40,625 nucleotides of DNA from a bacterium (GTDB lineage Bacteria > Verrucomicrobiota > Verrucomicrobiia > Limisphaerales > JAJXZI01), in assembly GCA_021780115.1 (NCBI GenBank), contig JAJXZI010000105.1:7796-48420 (forward strand), read 5' to 3'. Below are positions 2 to 32,175 of the stretch, in pieces (positions within the stretch are counted from its first letter, which is position 1; the number at the start of each line of letters is the position of its first letter). The translations under genes were made by a program, and so were the position numbers. The notes under the pieces were generated by a model. The model did no database searches, was not told the DNA's origin, and worked only from the letters and a program-made list of their open reading frames with translations.

Positions 2-712
2 AGCGGCGGCACCGTCTGGTATACCCAGATCGGGGGCGATACCATCCGGCCGATGATCACCATCACCGGCCTGCCGCCGGGCTTGGCGCAAGTATATTAC
101 GTTGTCGCCACGGGGCCGGGCGGCTCGTCGGGTTACACCGCGGCCGTGCTCGCCACCACCACCGCACCGCAAGGACCACCCCGTTTGTTTGTGACCGGAT
201 TGACTTCCACTTCCGTCAGTCTCGGTTGGGATGCTGCGCCCGGCCCGGCCCAGAATCCGCTCTATTCTCCCATCACCACCTACACGATCATGGAAAGAAA
301 CACATCCGTCAGTCCGGCGATAAACATCCCGGCCGCCACGAACCTCACCGGGACCAGCGGCACCATTACGGGACTCACGCCCGGCCGCTCGCACCTCTGG
401 TTTGTGTCCGGCGTTGACACGGCTGGAAATGCCTCACCGCTTGCGTTGGTGTATGTCGTTGTCACCAATCCCGTGCCTGTTTCCCCGCGCTTGAGCAACA
501 CTGGGCCGTCCGCGAACGGAGCCGTTCAATTCGCCGTGACCGAAGGCGGCTCCATCCTGCAAACGGTGCTGGTCCAAGCCACCACCAACCCGGCGAATCC
601 CGCCTCCTGGGTGCAAATCGGCTCCATACTTCCGACCGCGAGCCCAATCACCTTCACTGACACCAACGCCGCGCAATACCCGGCGCGTTTCTATCGGCTA
701 CAGGCGCCGTGA
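2..712 (+). CDS. Fibronectin type III domain protein, C-terminal part (5' end outside window)
   Basis: The reading frame is open from the first complete codon at position 2, so the gene begins before the window. It holds the end of one FN3-like domain (...YYVVATGPGGSSGYTAAV), then a complete FN3 domain running from about PRLFVTGLTSTSVSLGW to LVYVVVTNP. A final module of about 75 residues ends in ITFTDTNAAQYPARFYRLQAP-like sequence. FN3 domains are found in secreted and surface proteins and usually act as spacers or binding modules. The terminal module matches the end of the beta-helix protein at 30637-32175, so it may be a lineage-specific sorting or anchoring domain (inference). No catalytic domain is visible in the part present. 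Confidence 0.8.
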   Translation, partial: SGGTVWYTQIGGDTIRPMITITGLPPGLAQVYYVVATGPGGSSGYTAAVLATTTAPQGPPRLFVTGLTSTSVSLGWDAAPGPAQNPLYSPITTYTIMERNTSVSPAINIPAATNLTGTSGTITGLTPGRSHLWFVSGVDTAGNASPLALVYVVVTNPVPVSPRLSNTGPSANGAVQFAVTEGGSILQTVLVQATTNPANPASWVQIGSILPTASPITFTDTNAAQYPARFYRLQAP

Positions 713-1689: not shown

Positions 1690-3870
1690 TCACGGGGATG
1701 CCACCGTCGCCGGGCGCGGCCGGATCAGTTCTTCCGGCAGGCCCAGCGATTTTCCGTCCACCGGGCCGGAGGCGCCGGGTTCCCTGCCTTCGAGAAGTTG
1801 CCGGTACGTGGCCAGCGCGAGCAGCGGCCAGGCGTTCCGATACATGTCGTATTTCAGATAGAAGACTTTGGGAAAGCCGGTCCCGGTGATCTCGTCCTCC
1901 GTCCAGGAACCGTCGGGGTTCTGGGTGCGGATGAGGAACTCGACGCCGCGTTTCAGGCTGGGCCGCTCCGGCTCGTCAAAGGCACACAAGCCCATGACCG
2001 CCCACGCGGTCTGGGACGCCGTGCTGGGTCCCTGGCCTTTGAAAACCGGGTCGTCGTAGGTGTTGCAGCGCTCGCCCCACCCGCCGTCCTCGTGCTGGAC
2101 GCTTTCCAGCCAGTCGCGGGCCTTGAGCAGCCAGGCCTGGCGCATGTCCAGGTGAAAGGCGCGCAGGCCGCGCAGCACCTGCCAGGTGCCGTAGAGGTAG
2201 TTCACGCCCCAGCGCCCGTACCAGGAGCCGTCCGGTTCCTGGTTCTCGCGCAGGTATTCCAGCGCCCGCTGCACCTGCGGATGGTCGAGGCAGTAGCCCT
2301 CGTAGCCGAGCAATTCCAGGATGCGCGCGGTGATGTCGGCGCACTCCGGGTCGAGCATGGCGTTGTGATCGGCGAAGGGGACTTTTTCCAGAATGCCCTT
2401 GGTGCAGTCCTTGTCGAAGGCCGCCCAACCGCCGTCCCGGCACTGGAAGGTGAGCATCCAGTCCCGGCCGCGCTGGAAGGCGGCGGCGCGGCGCGCGGGA
2501 TCGTCGGTCGGCACTTTGCGCAGGGCGAGCAGCACCATCGCTGTGTCGTCCACGTCCGGGTTCCACTGGTTGTTGTATTCAAACACCCAGCCGCTCGGCT
2601 CGACCCGGGCGGGGTTCTTGTACTGCCAGTCGCCGCGGAAACGGATTTCGCGGTCGAGCACCCACTCGGTCGCCCGCTTGAGCGCGGGGTGGTCGGCCGG
2701 CACGCCCGACTCGGCCAGACAGATCGTCACAATCGCCGTGTCCCAGACCGGCGAGAAACACGGTTCGATGCGCACGCCGTGCTCGGTTTCGTGTTCCAGC
2801 TTCTTCAACTCCCGCTCGGCCCGGACGACCTGCGGGTGGTCGTCGGGATAGCCCAGCGCCTTGAGGGCGATGAGCGCGTTGAGCATGGACGGGAAGATCG
2901 CCGCCAAGCCGTCCGAGCCTTCGAAGCGCTCCAGCATCCACCGCTCGGCCTTCCGGAGCGCGCGTTTGCGGAAGGGGTGCAGGTTGTGCTGGGCGAACCA
3001 CTCGGCCAGCTTGTGGACTTGGTCCAGCCACAGGAAAAAGTTGCGCCAGGTCAGCCGGTCCGGATCGGGCGCCAGCGCCAGGTCGCGCTCGTGGAACCCT
3101 TCCGGGTAGAGTTCATCCAGGGTGACGTTCGCCGGCAGCGGGCGGGTGGGCTTGAAGTGGTTGATGATGGAGAGCGGCACGAGCATCGCGCGGCTCCAAC
3201 TGCTCATCTCCCAGAAATTCACGTGAAACCATTTGCCGATGAGCAGCACCTCGCAGGGAATGGTCGGCACGTATTCCCACGGGAACAACCCCAGCAGGGC
3301 CAGGTAAAGCTTGGAGAAGGTGTTCATGCGCGGCACGCCGCCCAGGCTGCGGGCCACTTCCCGCGCCCGGAGCATCCGCGGCGAGGTGGGCGGCACGCCG
3401 GCCAGCTTGAGCGCGAGGTAGGCCTTGATGGTGGCGTTCACTTCGGCCGGCCCGCCGTAGTAAATGTTCCACCCGCCATCCGGCAACTGCATCGCGAGCA
3501 GGTGGTTCACCGCCTTGCGCTGCCACGCCGGATCCACCTTCCCGTTCCAATGGTGATAGGCCACCATGTCCGACACCAGCGTGGAATCCACCATCAACTC
3601 GCCGACCCAGTAGCCTTCGGGCCGCTGCGCACCCAACAAATAGCGTTGCGACCGCCCGATGGCGGCCGCCAAACCCAGCACGGGACCAGACCGTAATGCG
3701 GCTGGTGCGGTCCCTGGAGCTTCGGAGTCCGGTTCTGGTACAGACACGCCGATACTCTGCGATTCGGCGCTGGCGGTGTAAAGGGGAATTCCCCGCGCCC
3801 CGGCATGGCGGACGCTCTCGTTCCGGCCGGCCATCCTGTGCCGCGACGGGCCGCTGAGCGCCTCGGACAA
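1690..3870 (-). CDS. shc: Squalene-hopene cyclase
   Basis: The enzyme cyclises squalene to hopene or hopanol, the first committed step of hopanoid membrane lipid synthesis, and acts as a monotopic inner-membrane protein. The catalytic acid motif DVDDTA is at residues 439-444 in this frame, and several QW-type repeats are present, such as QLPDGGWN, QCRDGGWAAFD, QEPDGSWYGRWG and QHEDGGWGE. The frame opens with a TTG codon at 3870, but residues 1-63 show no family resemblance. Homology begins at VLGLAAAIGRSQRYLL, where a GTG at 3681 would give 663 residues, close to the usual length. The true start is therefore uncertain (3870, ATG 3834 or GTG 3681). pyrK follows 96 bases downstream. Confidence 0.92.
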   Translation of the reverse strand: MSEALSGPSRHRMAGRNESVRHAGARGIPLYTASAESQSIGVSVPEPDSEAPGTAPAALRSGPVLGLAAAIGRSQRYLLGAQRPEGYWVGELMVDSTLVSDMVAYHHWNGKVDPAWQRKAVNHLLAMQLPDGGWNIYYGGPAEVNATIKAYLALKLAGVPPTSPRMLRAREVARSLGGVPRMNTFSKLYLALLGLFPWEYVPTIPCEVLLIGKWFHVNFWEMSSWSRAMLVPLSIINHFKPTRPLPANVTLDELYPEGFHERDLALAPDPDRLTWRNFFLWLDQVHKLAEWFAQHNLHPFRKRALRKAERWMLERFEGSDGLAAIFPSMLNALIALKALGYPDDHPQVVRAERELKKLEHETEHGVRIEPCFSPVWDTAIVTICLAESGVPADHPALKRATEWVLDREIRFRGDWQYKNPARVEPSGWVFEYNNQWNPDVDDTAMVLLALRKVPTDDPARRAAAFQRGRDWMLTFQCRDGGWAAFDKDCTKGILEKVPFADHNAMLDPECADITARILELLGYEGYCLDHPQVQRALEYLRENQEPDGSWYGRWGVNYLYGTWQVLRGLRAFHLDMRQAWLLKARDWLESVQHEDGGWGERCNTYDDPVFKGQGPSTASQTAWAVMGLCAFDEPERPSLKRGVEFLIRTQNPDGSWTEDEITGTGFPKVFYLKYDMYRNAWPLLALATYRQLLEGREPGASGPVDGKSLGLPEELIRPRPATVASP

Positions 3871-4020
3871 GCAGACGCGCGGCGAGATGGGTGACCTCCT
3901 CCGTACGCTCCGCCCCCCCCATTCGCGTCACCATCCTGCCCGGCGCCCGCCATTTCGCGGCAGCGGAGCGGTTGGGCGACCGGGTCATTCTGGTGCGCGA
4001 TGGCCGCGTGCAACCGCAGT
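3858..4020 (+). pseudogene. Possible 3' remnant of an unknown gene
   Basis: A short open frame bounded by a TGA at 3855 reads into [20 protein letters not shown] followed by [12 protein letters not shown] and a TGA at 4018-4020. The end has a protein-like composition and vaguely recalls the tail of a nucleotide-binding protein, but no family can be named. It has no credible start and its 5' end overlaps the doubtful N-terminal extension of the hopene cyclase frame. A C8 run at 3913-3920 lies within it. It could equally be chance. Confidence 0.2.
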
Positions 4021-4161
4021 GAGGCGATGCCGGCGCCGGACCTACTCACGCGAGCGTCCAATCCGGGTCGGCCGCCGAACGGCCAGTTTGGGCTTGCTTT
4101 TTCAGGGTGTTCTGAGACATTACCACCGTTCTTGAAGGGTTCCGAAAGAACTGAGAGACGT

Positions 4162-5073
4162 ATGCTGCGCAAAACTCTTGCCACGCCTTCGGAGAGACAG
4201 GGTGGATATTCGGGTTTCACCCTGATCGAGTTGTTAGTGGTCATCGCGATCATCGCGATCCTGGCCGGCCTCCTCCTGCCCGCCTTGGCCCACGCCAAGC
4301 AGAAGACCCAGGGCATCCAGTGCATGAACAACCATCGCCAGTTGGCGCTGGCGTGGCGCATGTACGCGGAGGACAACCGCGACGTCATCGTTTATGCGAG
4401 CGATGACGGAAGCGGCGCGGCCAATCCCTACAACCAGTATGCATGGACCCAGGCCCACTTGGACTTCAATCCCGCCAACCAGGCCAACTGGAATATTGCC
4501 GCCGACCTGGCCAAGGGTCCCCTCTGGCCCTATTGCAGCCAAAGTGCCGCGATCTTCAAGTGCCCTTCCGACCACTCCTCCATCCGGCTCAGCGGCGGGG
4601 CGATGGCGCCACGGGTGCGGAGCATGTCCATGAATTTGTATGTGGGCGGCTTTGCCGGGAGCCCCAAAACCAGCCCGGCCGGCAACGACGGGAACTGGCC
4701 TTGGGCGGCGCCGTATTTCATCTACAACAAGACTTCCGGCATGAACAATCCGGGGCCGGCGATGCTCTTCGTCTTCCTCGACATGCGCGAAGACCACATC
4801 AACTGGGGCAATTACATGACCTACATGGTGGGCTACCCGAACCAGCCGGCGCAGTATGCTTTCAGCCAGGACATGCCGGGCATCTACCATGATTTAGGGT
4901 GCGGTTTCTCCTTTGCCGACGGCCACTCCGAACTGCACCATTGGCGCGACGGGCGCACCACGCCGCCGATGCTGCCGCCGGGCCAGGCGGTGCCCGATAA
5001 CTTCTTTCTCGCGGTCCCGAACGACGTGGATGTCGCTTGGCTGCAAGACCACGCCACGCGCCCCCACAACTAA
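4162..5073 (+). CDS. Prepilin-like protein with H-X9-DG C-terminal motif
   Basis: This 303-residue protein has a type IV pilin/pseudopilin N-terminus: a short basic leader, the prepilin peptidase site G|FTLIE, and a hydrophobic helix ([19 protein letters not shown]). It carries the [20 protein letters not shown] segment typical of the large verrucomicrobial and planctomycetal prepilin families. The C-terminus has an exact H-X9-DG motif ([12 protein letters not shown]). Such proteins are exported and processed by a type II/IV pilus system; the individual role is unknown. ATG 4162 was chosen because it gives a normal leader with a purine-rich GAGAGAC just upstream, whereas the open frame extends back to 4000 without similarity. 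No secretion-system genes are adjacent. Confidence 0.85.
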
Positions 5074-6223: not shown

Positions 6224-6759
6224 CGCTGATCGGACACGGCCAGCCGGAACTGGCTGATCACGTGCTGGGCGACCTCGATCACGGAGCGGCGCTCGGTGTT
6301 CACCAGCACGTCCGCCTGCCGGTAGAACGGGTCCCGCGCGGTCAGCAGCGCCCGGATGCGGGCCAGCGGATCGGGGTCGTGCAACATCGGCCGATGCGCC
6401 TGGAAGCGCACGCGTTCCCAGAGCATCTCCGGCGAAGCCCAGAGATAAACGACCAGCGAGTGCGCCTGCAGGTCCGCCAAGTTCTGCGCGTTGGCCGGCA
6501 GTCCGCCGCCGGTGGCAATGACGGTGCGGGTTCGCTGGCCTAACTGCTGCACGACTTGGCGCTCGCGTTCGCGGAACGCCAGCTCACCCGCCGCGGCGAA
6601 AAGCTCCGTGATCGACTTCCCCGCTTGCGACTCGATGAGTTCATCGGTGTCGAGAAAATCGAATCGCAGCCGATCCGCCACGGCGTGCCCGACGGAGGAT
6701 TTGCCCGCGCCCATGAACCCGATCAGGGCGAGGTTGTGGATTGGCCGAGTCTCGATCAC
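6220..6759 (-). CDS. aroK: Shikimate kinase
   Basis: This 179-residue P-loop kinase phosphorylates shikimate at the 3-hydroxyl in the chorismate pathway. The Walker A motif GFMGAGKSS spans residues 14-22. The shikimate-binding DTD (FLDTDELIE), the FRERE segment and the Walker B-like ATGGG motif follow in the expected order, then the lid region with RPML. Length and order are normal for AroK. It is the first gene of a two-gene minus-strand unit with queG. A near-identical fold occurs in gluconate kinases, but the DTD and FRERE motifs fit shikimate kinase. Confidence 0.93.
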   Translation of the reverse strand: MIETRPIHNLALIGFMGAGKSSVGHAVADRLRFDFLDTDELIESQAGKSITELFAAAGELAFRERERQVVQQLGQRTRTVIATGGGLPANAQNLADLQAHSLVVYLWASPEMLWERVRFQAHRPMLHDPDPLARIRALLTARDPFYRQADVLVNTERRSVIEVAQHVISQFRLAVSDQR

Positions 6760-6840
6760 GACTCTCTTCTACCGCAACCCGTGGGGCTTGACACGCGGTT
6801 TTCCAAAGAATGTCAGCCGGGGGCCGCGGTGGGCGAGGCT

Positions 6841-7302
6841 TCAGATGCTGAAATCGAACGCTTTCAGCGGTTCCTCCTGCAACCGGCGCCAGCGCTCGCA
6901 CAGTTCGGCCACGGTGACGCGTTCCGCGATCTGCACGATTGCCTCGCGGACTTCCTTCATCACACTGCGGATGGGACAGCGTGACTCGTCCGGGCAGGAG
7001 CATTTCTCGTAAAAATGCTGGCTGACGCAACTGACCGGCGCCAGCGCCCCTTCGATGTGCCGCACCACGCTGGCCAGCGTCACCTCCTCGGGGGGACGCG
7101 CCAGACGATAACCGCCGGCAACGCCCCGCTTGCTTTGCACGATACCCGCCGATTTCAGGTCGTTCAGGATCTGCTCCAGGAACCGCTTAGGGATGTTCTG
7201 ATGCCGCGAGATGTTCTGGATGCTCACAACCTTGTCGCCGAAGTTCAGTCCAAGAACCAACATGGCCCGAAGGGCGTATTCGCCGCGGAGGGACAATCTC
7301 AT
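6841..7302 (-). CDS. Rrf2 family transcriptional regulator, probable regulator of the divergent sulfur operon
   Basis: The 153-residue protein begins MRLSLRGEYALRAML and has the Rrf2 winged helix (SIQNISRHQNIPKRFLEQIL, GVAGGYRLARPPEEVTL). In the C-terminal part it has cysteines at 92, 101, 103 and 109, so it may bind an Fe-S cluster or sense thiols. Rrf2 members include IscR, NsrR and the cysteine-metabolism repressor CymR. Transcription is divergent from a sulfate uptake and cysteine synthesis operon, with only 155 AT-rich bases between the two starts, so a CymR-like role is the best inference. The sequence alone cannot separate CymR-like from IscR-like function. Confidence 0.88.
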   Translation of the reverse strand: MRLSLRGEYALRAMLVLGLNFGDKVVSIQNISRHQNIPKRFLEQILNDLKSAGIVQSKRGVAGGYRLARPPEEVTLASVVRHIEGALAPVSCVSQHFYEKCSCPDESRCPIRSVMKEVREAIVQIAERVTVAELCERWRRLQEEPLKAFDFSI

Positions 7303-7308
7303 GACCCG

Positions 7309-7336
7309 AATCTACAATGCGTAGCAACTTGGTCAA
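7309..7336 (-). promoter_or_regulatory. Candidate sigma-70 promoter of the Rrf2 gene
   Basis: Read on the minus strand, TTGACC (7336-7331) and TAGATT (7314-7309) are separated by 16 bases. The -10 box ends 6 bases before the ATG, so transcription would start at or next to the A of the start codon, predicting a leaderless mRNA. No Shine-Dalgarno sequence precedes the ATG, which fits. Confidence 0.45.
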
Positions 7337-7411
7337 GATTGTTTCAAATTGGATTTGCCTGCTCTGAAATAGCCGAGTATTGGGCAAATCGAATAATTTA
7401 CATAATCACAA

Positions 7412-7439
7412 TTGACAAAGTGTAGATTTTTGGTATTGT
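7412..7439 (+). promoter_or_regulatory. Candidate sigma-70 promoter of the sulfur operon
   Basis: A perfect TTGACA (7412-7417) is followed after 16 bases by TATTGT (7434-7439). It lies in the only clearly AT-rich stretch of the region and points toward the DUF2292 gene, whose ATG is 18 bases past the -10 box. The AT-rich sequence just upstream (about 7390-7411) is a plausible place for the Rrf2 regulator to bind, although no strong palindrome could be picked out. Confidence 0.5.
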
Positions 7440-7457
7440 CGCCGCTGTCCGATCGAA

Positions 7458-7655
7458 ATGACGCGAATGAAGACTTTTGAGAACAGGGGAGAAACAGCGC
7501 CGACATGGGAGCGCTTGGTGCAAGCCCACGTCCACTCGCTGCGCTTCGGGACCGTGCAAATTGTCGTTCACGGCGGGCGCGTCGTTCAGGTCGAACGCAC
7601 CGAGAAGGTCCGGCTGGATGACCCGGATCACCGGAGCCAGGAGTCTGGCGGATGA
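7458..7655 (+). CDS. DUF2292 (YezD-like) small protein
   Basis: This 65-residue protein matches the short DUF2292/YezD pattern: an amphipathic start (WERLVQAHVHSLRFGTV), a beta segment QIVVHGGRVVQVERTEKVRL and a polar tail. In many bacteria members of this family sit beside sulfate or cysteine metabolism genes, and here the gene is first in a sulfate uptake operon. Its biochemical role is unknown. The ATG is 18 bases downstream of the predicted -10 box, so the leader is short and has no Shine-Dalgarno sequence. A second Met at codon 4 is an alternative start. Confidence 0.8.
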   Translation: MTRMKTFENRGETAPTWERLVQAHVHSLRFGTVQIVVHGGRVVQVERTEKVRLDDPDHRSQESGG

Positions 7656-7744
7656 TTGGGCTAACCAGTCCACTGGTGGCAGAAAACGGCAGCGGAGCCA
7701 ACTGACCGATCCGTCGGAAGTGAAGCTGGACATGAAAACGACCA

Positions 7745-9163
7745 ATGAAAATCAAGCGATGGCTGCTGGTCGCGGCCATCACCAGTCTTCAAGAAACGGC
7801 CAGCCACGCGTGCGCCGATGACGGCACGGAAGAGAACCGACAGGTGAGAAAGCAGGTTCAAACGTCGGACCCAGGGTTCCGCCTCCTCGGAGGCGGGGCC
7901 GGGCCAACGTTTTCGTTCGGCGCCCGCGGCGTCTCCCTCCGCTCCGCCGACTCGAACTTCGTCGCGCGGCTCCATGGCCACGTTCAACTCGACTCGCGGA
8001 CGTTCTTCGGAGACGGCGGTGTCCGCGGCAGCGACCCGCTTCTGGTCCGGCGGGCGCGGCCGATCCTGGAAGGAACGGCATTCCAGGACTTCGACTTCCT
8101 GTTCACGCCGGACTTCGGCACCGGCGCCAACGGAGGCGCCACCGCGCAGACGCCGCAGATTTTTGATGCCTACCTCAGCTATCGCCCCCAACCCGGACTG
8201 CATTTTCGTGTCGGCAAGTTCAAGTCCCCCGTCGGACTGGAGCAGTTGCAGCCGGATGACTCGGTGCTCTTCAACGAACGCAGCCTGGCGACGGAACTGG
8301 TGCCCACGCGCGAGTTTGGCGTCCAGGTGCTTGGGGAGGGATTCGATGGTCGGCTCAGTTACCGGGCGGGCGTGTTCAACGCGGCGGGAGACTACCGCAA
8401 CGCGAGCGGCCCTGACTTCGGGCGCGACCCCGAAGTCGCGGGCCGGCTGTTCCTGCAGCCGCTCAAAGGCTCGACGTTGGCCGTGGCGCGAGGCGTCGGC
8501 TTGGGCGTGGGAGGAAGTTGCGGCGGCGCGTCAACGGCCAACGCCCTCCCCTCAAAAACCGGCGGCGCCCTGCCCGGCTACGCCACGGACGGACAGCAAC
8601 AATTCTTTGCCTACCATCCGGCGCCGGTGGGCGGAAGCGCGCCGGTCTTGGTCGCGGACGGCACGCACTGGCGGCTTTCGCCGCAGGGTTATGATTACTT
8701 TGGGCCTTTCGGCCTGCTGGGTGAATACGTTATTTCGTCGCAACCGGTCCGGCGCGCCGGCGCGGCCCCGCTGACTTCGGCCCGATTGGAACACGTCGCC
8801 TGGCAAATCACCGGCTCGTGGATGCTCACCGGCGATGCGGCATCCTACCAAGGCGTGAGTCCCGCCCATCCCTTCCATCCCGCGCTGGGCCAATGGGGCG
8901 CCGTGCAACTGGTGGCGCGGTTCGCGCAAATGGACCTCGACCGCGCCGCCTTCCCGCTGTTCTCCGACCCGCGGGCCTCGGCGCGCTCCGCCCGCGCCTG
9001 GTCGGTGGGGCTGAACTGGTGGCTGAACCGGAACGTGCGCCTGGGCGCCAGTTGCTCACATACCGATTTCAGTGGCGGCGGCGGCCCCGGGACATCGGCG
9101 CCGGCCACCGTGACGCGGCAGCCGGAGAATGTGCTGTTCACCCGGGCCCAACTTGTGTTTTAA
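7745..9163 (+). CDS. Outer-membrane porin, OprO/OprP (phosphate-selective porin) family
   Basis: The 472-residue protein has a cleavable N-terminal segment followed by the OprO/P family pattern: [16 protein letters not shown], then [20 protein letters not shown] with an aspartate-rich strand, and [21 protein letters not shown]. It ends in a strand with a terminal phenylalanine (LFTRAQLVF), the usual signature for outer-membrane barrel assembly. Known relatives are anion-selective. Its place between a DUF2292 gene and the sulfate-binding protein gene (4 bases away) suggests it passes sulfate or another sulfur oxyanion (inference). It is exported, and acts in the outer membrane. Confidence 0.82.
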
Positions 9164-30636: not shown

Positions 30637-32175
30637 ATGAAAACCAAGCTCAACCTCCTGGCGGCGGCGGTCTTCCTGGTGACGGCGGGCAGCGCCGGCG
30701 CCGCCGTGCGCTACGTGGACGGGAACAGCACCAACGCCACGCCGCCCTACACCAACTGGGCCACCGCCGCCGCCACCATCCAGGCCGCCGTGGACGCGGC
30801 CGACGCGGGAGATGAGATCGTGGTGACCAACGGAATCTATGCCACCGGCGGGCGGGCGGTGGTGGGCACCATGACGAATCGCGTGGCGGTGGACAAGCCG
30901 CTGACCGTGCGGAGCGTCAACGGCCCGGCTGTCACGGTGATCCAAGGCTACCAAGTGCCCGGCGCCAGCAACGGCGATGGCGCGGTTCGGTGCGTGTATC
31001 TGACCAACGGCGCCAGCCTCTCCGGGTTCACCTTGATGCAAGGAGCCACCCGGAGCGCCGGAGATTGGCGTGAGCAAAGTGGCGGCGGGTTGTGGTGTGA
31101 AGCAACGAATGTGTTGGTTTCAAACTGTGTACTGGCAGGCAACTCGGCGGCCAGGTGGGGCGGAGGAGCGGGTGAAGGCGCTTTGACCAACTGCGTATTG
31201 ACCGGCAATTGGGCGGGATGGTACGGAGGCGGCGCGGGTTATGGCACCCTGGTCAATTGCACCTTGAGCAATAACTGGGCGGGCAGCGGAGGCGGGGTGT
31301 GCAATAGCACGCTCAACAACTGCACCTTGAGTGGCAATAGGGCCGTTGCATGGGGCGGCGGCGCGGTCGGCGGGGCTGCTGCCTGGAGCAGCACTCTGAG
31401 CAACTGCACATTGACAGGAAACTTCGCCGATTTCGGCGGTGGCGTTGGATCTTACAGCGCGCTCAATAATTGCACCCTGACCGGCAACTACGCTACAAAC
31501 GAGGGCGGAGGAGCGTTCATGGCGATGCTCAACAACTGCATCATCCACTTCAACACTGCTGCTGCGGGACCGAATCACGGGGGCAGTACCTTGAACTACT
31601 GTTGCACGACGCCCGATCCCGGAGGCTTGGGCAACATCACCAACGCGCCGCTGTTCGTGGATTACGCCGGCGGTAATCTGCGGTTGCAATCCAACTCCCC
31701 CTGCATCAACGCCGGCTTCAACGCTTACGCCGCCGGCACAACGGACCTGGACGGCCATCCGCGCATCGTCCACGGCACCGTGGACCTCGGCGCCTACGAG
31801 TTCCAGGGGCCCGGCTCGGCGATTTCCTACGCCTGGCTCCAGCAATATGACCTGGCCACCGACGGCTCGGCGGATTACGCCGACCCCGACGGCGACGGCA
31901 TGAACAACTGGCAGGAGTGGCGCTGCGGCACCGATCCCAGAAACGCGGCCTCGGTGTTGCGCCTGCTGTCGGCGCCGCCCGCCGGCAGCAACGTCACCGT
32001 GACCTGGCAGAGCGTCTCCGGGATGAGCTATTTCCTGGAGCGCAGCACGAACCTGGCGGTGTCTCCGCCCTTCACGATGTTGGCCACCAACCTGCCCGGC
32101 CAGGCCGGCACCACGAGCTTCACGGACACCAACGCCGCCGCGGCCCGGCGCTTCTACCGCGTGGGCGTGCCGTAG
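30637..32175 (+). CDS. Exported beta-helix protein with choice-of-anchor Q domain
   Basis: The 512-residue protein has a signal peptide (MKTKLNLLAAAVFLVTAGSAGA), a YVDGNSTNATPPYTNWATAA start common to right-handed beta-helix proteins, and seven coils of about 21-28 residues built on LNNCTLTGN and GGG. The coil region closes with a choice-of-anchor Q segment (NSPCINAG...DLDGHPRI...VDLGAYEF). A calcium-loop DPDGDGMNNWQEW and a terminal domain ending SFTDTNAAAARRFYRVGVP follow. A clear GGAGA precedes ATG 30637. Surface display or secretion is likely; no enzymatic function can be assigned. Confidence 0.85.
   Translation: MKTKLNLLAAAVFLVTAGSAGAAVRYVDGNSTNATPPYTNWATAAATIQAAVDAADAGDEIVVTNGIYATGGRAVVGTMTNRVAVDKPLTVRSVNGPAVTVIQGYQVPGASNGDGAVRCVYLTNGASLSGFTLMQGATRSAGDWREQSGGGLWCEATNVLVSNCVLAGNSAARWGGGAGEGALTNCVLTGNWAGWYGGGAGYGTLVNCTLSNNWAGSGGGVCNSTLNNCTLSGNRAVAWGGGAVGGAAAWSSTLSNCTLTGNFADFGGGVGSYSALNNCTLTGNYATNEGGGAFMAMLNNCIIHFNTAAAGPNHGGSTLNYCCTTPDPGGLGNITNAPLFVDYAGGNLRLQSNSPCINAGFNAYAAGTTDLDGHPRIVHGTVDLGAYEFQGPGSAISYAWLQQYDLATDGSADYADPDGDGMNNWQEWRCGTDPRNAASVLRLLSAPPAGSNVTVTWQSVSGMSYFLERSTNLAVSPPFTMLATNLPGQAGTTSFTDTNAAAARRFYRVGVP
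31114..31560 (+). repeat. Internal coil repeats of the beta-helix protein
   Basis: Seven related blocks encode N-C-(T/V)-L-(T/S)-G-N followed by a glycine-rich turn. Copies start near 31120, 31187, 31252, 31312, 31396, 31460 and 31528, and several share stretches such as CTCAACAACTGCACCTTGA, so copy-number change by recombination is possible. Confidence 0.6.

Follow-up and report, generated by a model that had tools for sequence, protein, structure and literature searches.

Substrates of type IX secretion carry a small C-terminal beta-sandwich that is found on many different exported proteins, and the pilins of chaperone-usher systems lack strand G and are completed by donor strands. We know of no secretion tag that uses donor-strand sorting. 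PEP-CTERM and GlyGly-CTERM proteins, as described in PMC3237569, are characterized by a C-terminal homology region common to otherwise unrelated exported proteins. In PelI and Pel3, loop 3 of the FN3 domain is reported to be a type II secretion signal that contacts GspC and GspD, and further secretion determinants are placed in the catalytic domain (PMC7949064). We analyzed a 40,625-nucleotide stretch of a Limisphaerales genome (assembly GCA_021780115.1, contig JAJXZI010000105.1, positions 7,796 to 48,420; hereafter the window), in which a first-pass annotation had pointed to a C-terminal domain shared by two exported proteins. Judged by its sequence, this tail of ~75 residues belongs to a family of Verrucomicrobiota C-terminal domains absent from the libraries searched, and that the family is real and C-terminal we regard as nearly certain. 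It is ordinary in fold and unusual in use. The family appears to be a variant of the C-terminal beta-sandwich modules present on exported proteins, and a sorting function is plausible.

The first tail-bearing gene (positions 2–712, plus strand, frame 2, stop codon 710–712) encodes the C-terminal part of an exported-type Kelch/FN3 protein that ends ...FTDTNAAQYPARFYRLQAP at 709. Its FN3 domain lies within the window; its Kelch repeats and a signal-like start (judged by eye) lie upstream, and the protein begins in an open reading frame (ORF) at 6367–7851 of locus L118, beyond an N-gap. This run of N in the assembly (L118, about 7777–7788), just upstream of window position 1, breaks the Kelch/FN3 reading frame, so the first ORF of the window looks N-terminally truncated. 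An ordinary FN3 domain precedes the tail (176–472, plus strand) and provides an in-protein comparison: PF00041 matches residues 59–142 (176–427) at E 2.6e-4, below the Pfam cut-off, and the stretch to 472 reads as the remainder of the domain, comprising the FG loop and G-strand sequence (L309). Tail domain 1 follows (485–709, plus strand), ends ARFYRLQAP, and is predicted to be six-stranded and FN3-like, without strand G. The initial annotation had located the shared domain at 480–712; the tail is indeed there, but its reading frame is 479–709, and translation from 480 yields two stops. Near this gene, the product of positions 4000–5073 carries a prepilin-type N-methylation motif and resembles DUF1559 below threshold. 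A squalene-hopene cyclase gene occupies 1690–3870 on the minus strand, and many of the best 80 of its 342 relatives are labelled Verrucomicrobia subdivision 3, Limisphaerales or Pedosphaera.

The second tail belongs to an exported-type beta-helix protein of 512 amino acids (ORF 30637–32175, plus strand), which ends ...FTDTNAAAARRFYRVGVP at 32172, followed by the stop codon at 32173–32175. The protein opens with the signal-peptide-like sequence MKTKLNLLAAAVFLVTAGSAGA (30637–30702, plus strand; judged by eye, not by SignalP) and contains a choice-of-anchor Q domain (31675–31806, plus strand; NF041518, 40.3 bits, cut-off 25). A weak TSP3-like stretch (31882–31941, plus strand; PF18884, E 0.012, below the cut-off) precedes tail domain 2 (31957–32172, plus strand), which is matched by the tail profile and ends ARRFYRVGVP. 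The N-terminal architectures are thus unrelated, as first proposed: Kelch motifs with an FN3 domain on one side, and on the other a beta-helix with a choice-of-anchor Q domain and the TSP3-like stretch. Both proteins also look exported, judging by eye from their signal-like starts.

That the two proteins share one tail held up in sequence comparisons. Aligned with each other (pairwise BLASTP), the two tails are 35% identical over 51 amino acids (E 1e-4). A profile of 76 tails from other genomes, which had themselves been found with profile A2 (the window tails being 2 of its 82 rows), scored the Kelch/FN3 and beta-helix tails at E 1.5e-18 and 3.9e-12, respectively, whereas the next-best score of this profile among the 516 window ORFs and reversed decoys was E 1.1. 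Chance or low-complexity similarity is ruled out by this profile of other species together with the reversed decoys. Pfam and NCBIfam scans of both proteins and of 30 tails returned no family covering the tail, which rules out a known family in these libraries for the sequences scanned. PF00041 itself has no match in the tail regions or in the 30 tails at E ≤ 1, and none of its 10 matches in the window's genome overlaps a tail. Among the literature matches listed (open-licence PMC papers, by title and start of abstract), none describes the tail.

The domain occurs predominantly at the very end of proteins. In the window's genome, 89/98 examined matches end at most 8 residues before the stop codon; this set comprises 98 of the 99 matches at E ≤ 4.8e-6, one contig-edge piece having been dropped and 29 weaker matches left out. 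The others are six internal copies (at least 200 residues follow), one copy at a contig end, one that forms a tandem pair with a terminal copy behind it, and one trailed by 26 extra residues. Strong matches elsewhere are terminal in 40/40 cases within the order (27 genomes) and in 38/40 cases across the phylum (24 genomes of 13 families), the other two being one contig end and one internal copy; these samples consist of the strongest matches among those listed. Profile A2 was built from terminal copies only, and divergent internal forms may therefore be under-counted. Of the 10 PF00041 matches in the window's genome, which served as a control, 1 is terminal and retains its G-strand sequence. 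The expectation that a profile search would return C-terminal hits exclusively was therefore borne out for the great majority of copies, with a few internal ones (6/98 in the window's genome) against it. One protein of this genome (G000:C32:30591–31019, L117) ends in two tail domains in tandem.

The ending is strongly conserved. Exact FYR is present in 124/167 tails, an FYR-like motif lies 4–5 residues before the stop in 125/164, and proline is the last residue in 92/167. Across 138 tails, the most conserved positions are R80 (99%), W51 (97%), Y79 (90%) and F78 (89%), followed by L45 (88%), Y37 (80%) and G34 (80%); the conserved tryptophan marks the start of the fourth predicted strand.

Structure prediction and remote homology searches point to an FN3-type sandwich. 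AlphaFold gave mean pLDDT values of 87.7 for the Kelch/FN3-protein tail (138 sequences) and 81.3 for the beta-helix tail (82 sequences). In the former model, which covers the 84 residues encoded at 458–709, six strands span residues 11–17, 23–28, 37–42, 52–57, 64–68 and 78–82; strand G is absent from both models, and the last strand of the Kelch/FN3 tail ends at residue 82 of 84. A profile search of PDB sequences matched part of the domain to the glucanase/chitosanase chains 2rv9, 4zxe and 4zy9 (E 3e-5 to 5e-5); the match to the FN3-like chain 3mpc_A extends over nearly its full length (E 0.0012; 0.015 with a larger profile). Structural comparison (VIA-align) of the Kelch/FN3 tail ranked PelI 3b8y_A (Z 8.0, rmsd 2.1, 72 aligned) and Pel3 4u49_B (Z 7.7, rmsd 2.2, 72 aligned) ahead of Nir2 and CDO (7.3 each) and Tencon 4lpu_A (Z 7.1, to residue 75 of 93), although Z values within 1 of each other count as ties and the top rank of PelI is such a tie. 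The beta-helix tail aligned best with 5g56 (Z 7.9), 3mpc_A (Z 7.7, rmsd 2.5, 73 residues aligned at 29% identity, ending at residue 77 of 96) and Nir2 (7.7), with PelI at 7.2. Many of the top structural rows are FN3 domains with Z 6–8, consistent with FN3 beta-sandwich topology; the models are predicted, and Z values of this size may reflect a common arrangement. The best Foldseek E value was 0.036, and our fold assignment therefore rests on sequence, topology and the many FN3 rows combined. Alignments to stand-alone FN3 chains stop at residue 73 of 84 (5j7k_A), 77 of 90 (6d0j_C), 75 of 93 (4lpu_A) and 77 of 96 (3mpc_A), so that these chains continue about 11–19 residues past the end of the tail (approximate, by entry numbering). 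Together, the models suggest that the tail is an FN3 sandwich of strands A–F, and that the protein stops where strand G would come.

Tail-bearing proteins are enriched in export signals. By a home-made score rather than SignalP, signal-peptide-like starts were called in 57/72 tail ORFs of the window's genome (those with a length of 200 residues or more whose upstream stop is visible) versus 23/110 control ORFs from the same loci, and in 24/30 and 32/36 tail ORFs of other genomes. Among the 15 signal-negative tail ORFs, reading by eye revealed a signal-like segment missed by the score in nine, the controls having been assessed by score only; five of the remaining six were scanned and comprise a cellulase, an RCC1 protein, a CARDB protein, one with a sub-threshold copper-binding match and one without any match. 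The 48 full-length signal-positive hosts contain 82 Pfam families, none of which occurs in more than 5/48, so that the hosts share little except the tail, in line with the earlier proposal of a homologous module on unrelated proteins. The 25 families listed of the 82 include Ig, NHL, RCC1, laminin G, cytochrome c7, subtilase and M64 peptidase, as well as an AbrB-like regulator model in two hosts. We saw no clear cytoplasmic host among these 48 (from the 25/82 families listed) or among five of the 15 signal-negative hosts; the 48 had been picked for their signal and are uninformative on this point. Enrichment among proteins with signal-peptide-like starts was thus supported, whereas the companion expectation that cytoplasmic hosts would be absent stands only in so far as none was clear in scans of mostly signal-chosen hosts.

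The copy number of the family is high. A single tail used as query found 43 matches at E ≤ 1 in the window's genome (86% complete), and a 30-tail profile found at least 128 at E ≤ 1 and at least 115 at E ≤ 1e-3 (150/243 candidates scored). In the order sample, 57/58 genomes carry the tail at E ≤ 1e-5, 54/58 with at least 10 copies and 11/58 with at least 98. In the phylum sample, with up to 39 candidates scored per genome, it was detected in 54/145 genomes and in 0/15 genomes of one family (f3). Within Verrucomicrobiota, to which the survey was confined, these counts show an expansion in one lineage, in line with the lineage-specific module suggested by the first-pass annotation. One genome within the order (G151, 94% complete) has neither a tail nor an exosortase match. 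A search of a plasmid collection with one tail gave no match, which says nothing about absence elsewhere.

A module at the ends of so many exported proteins invites comparison with established C-terminal signals. Type IX secretion follows the same logic, since its substrates too are diverse exported proteins that end in a small beta-sandwich, yet we consider it highly improbable that the tail is a type IX C-terminal domain: 0/30 tails match TIGR04183 or any other such NCBIfam model at E ≤ 1, and SprA was detected in 0/145 genomes, although no control genome gave a match either. An exosortase (PEP-CTERM-like) substrate signal is scarcely credible, despite exosortase matches in 53/54 tail-bearing versus 51/91 tail-less genomes and a family-level association (25/25 versus 12/19, p 0.001) stronger than that of GspD-like secretins. 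No transmembrane helix or basic end comes after the tail; in terminal copies the stop is at most 10 residues away from the FYR-like motif, and there is no hydrophobic helix of the PEP-CTERM type. PEP-CTERM proteins form a separate set, with 20 matches over the cut-off in the window's genome, and a genome of the order that is 90% complete (G187) carries 65 tails without an exosortase match, which rules out exosortase as a required partner. Five PEP-CTERM matches stand in a row at G000:C331:18462–22017, adjoining a tail-bearing gene.

We hypothesize instead that the tail, as a folded C-terminal domain, serves as a tag for sorting or retention, a reading to which we give about an even chance, because it is the shared ending of many unrelated exported proteins, carries a near-invariant motif and occurs in high copy number. 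The host would leave the cytoplasm by its N-terminal signal peptide and fold in the periplasm, where one shared partner would read the common C-terminal domain through the near-invariant Trp, Phe-Tyr-Arg and Leu positions. This reader would then pass the hosts through the outer membrane or keep them on the cell surface; conjecturally, it is most likely to be either the machinery of type II secretion or a receptor on the surface. A rather doubtful but serious alternative is an accessory domain with no part in sorting, which binds a ligand or partner (a sugar, or another surface protein next to it) or does no more than cap the protein, and which is C-terminal since a sandwich ending at strand F is a naturally terminal unit. 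FN3 is a common accessory module, AlphaFold predicts a confident fold for the tail alone, a few internal copies are followed by further sequence, and propellers as well as lectin-like, Ig and cytochrome proteins are among the hosts. An accessory role nevertheless does not by itself explain the near-invariant ending or the presence of the tail on enzymes, propellers, beta-helices and cytochromes alike. The absence of strand G from both models, together with FN3 chains that run on where the tails stop, would also suit a donor-strand arrangement, in which a receptor, chaperone or neighbouring subunit supplies the missing strand in trans and the exposed edge of strand F could be completed by a receptor strand. 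We regard this as improbable: no donor peptide or chaperone was identified, and the tail model is confident without a donor. The tag reading could accommodate it as the underlying physical mechanism. In its most far-reaching form, a dedicated receptor would supply strand G and thereby sort about a hundred unrelated proteins per genome in a large verrucomicrobial export system, which we think very improbable.

For a reader of the putative tag, type II secretion is the leading candidate because the FN3 domains of PelI and Pel3 rank highest structurally for the Kelch/FN3 tail and GspD-like secretins co-occur with the tail. Even so, we consider this assignment unlikely, since PelI shares its top rank with tied rows and the majority of GspD matches fall below the curated cut-off. 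Most tail-bearing proteins have the N-terminal export signal expected of type II substrates, at the frequencies given above by the home-made score. GspD-like matches at E < 1e-70 occur in 52/54 tail-bearing versus 60/91 tail-less genomes and, at the family level, in 25/25 versus 16/19 (p 0.07). The curated GspD cut-off is exceeded in 37/145 genomes, the window's genome being below it, and all 58 genomes of the order have GspD-like matches, the tail-less G151 included. GspC at E ≤ 0.01 was found in 5/54 tail-bearing and 13/91 tail-less genomes, with none in the window's genome; its two matches over the cut-off are both in tail-less genomes. The partner transport system envisaged at the outset has thus a co-occurring candidate in GspD-like secretins, but one that is not specific to tail-bearing genomes (60/91 tail-less genomes have it too), and the analysis turned up no dedicated receptor. 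Within the order, several GspD matches consist of two neighbouring ORFs, one covering the N-terminal part of the model (~1–336) and the other its C-terminal part (~264–600), perhaps a split secretin (G193:C24:308760–311182, G178:C345:1056–3657, G195:C73:33841–36272 and G181:C1:27505–30793).

Tens of exported proteins per genome end in a domain that the searched libraries lack. The order is represented here largely by metagenome assemblies, according to the genome labels, and 89 terminal copies were confirmed in the window's genome. If the tail is a sorting tag, the secretome of the order would be outlined in one step, and the way in which an exporter recognizes folded cargo could be tested with one transferable domain. 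Should the tail be no more than an accessory domain, a family model would still annotate many C-termini that are now unclassified.

Set beside described systems, the tail combines familiar elements in a different arrangement. With FN3 domains (PF00041; bacterial 3mpc and 5g56) it shares the predicted fold and a weak sequence relation, but it has no PF00041 match, lacks strand G and the FG loop, is mostly C-terminal, and carries the near-invariant FYR and the tryptophan that opens the fourth predicted strand. The type IX C-terminal domain (TIGR04183) resembles it in many-to-one logic and differs in having no sequence match. The same sorting-tag logic applies to PEP-CTERM and GlyGly-CTERM; these, however, combine a short motif with a transmembrane helix and a basic end (PMC3237569), whereas the tail is a folded domain and lacks any membrane segment. 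In PelI and Pel3, as in the beta-helix protein of the window, an FN3 domain is joined to a beta-helix, and theirs takes part in type II recognition (PMC7949064). Their domain is N-terminal and seven-stranded, and the signal is located in variable loops and to some extent in the catalytic domain, whereas the tail is C-terminal, has six predicted strands and is marked by conserved residues.
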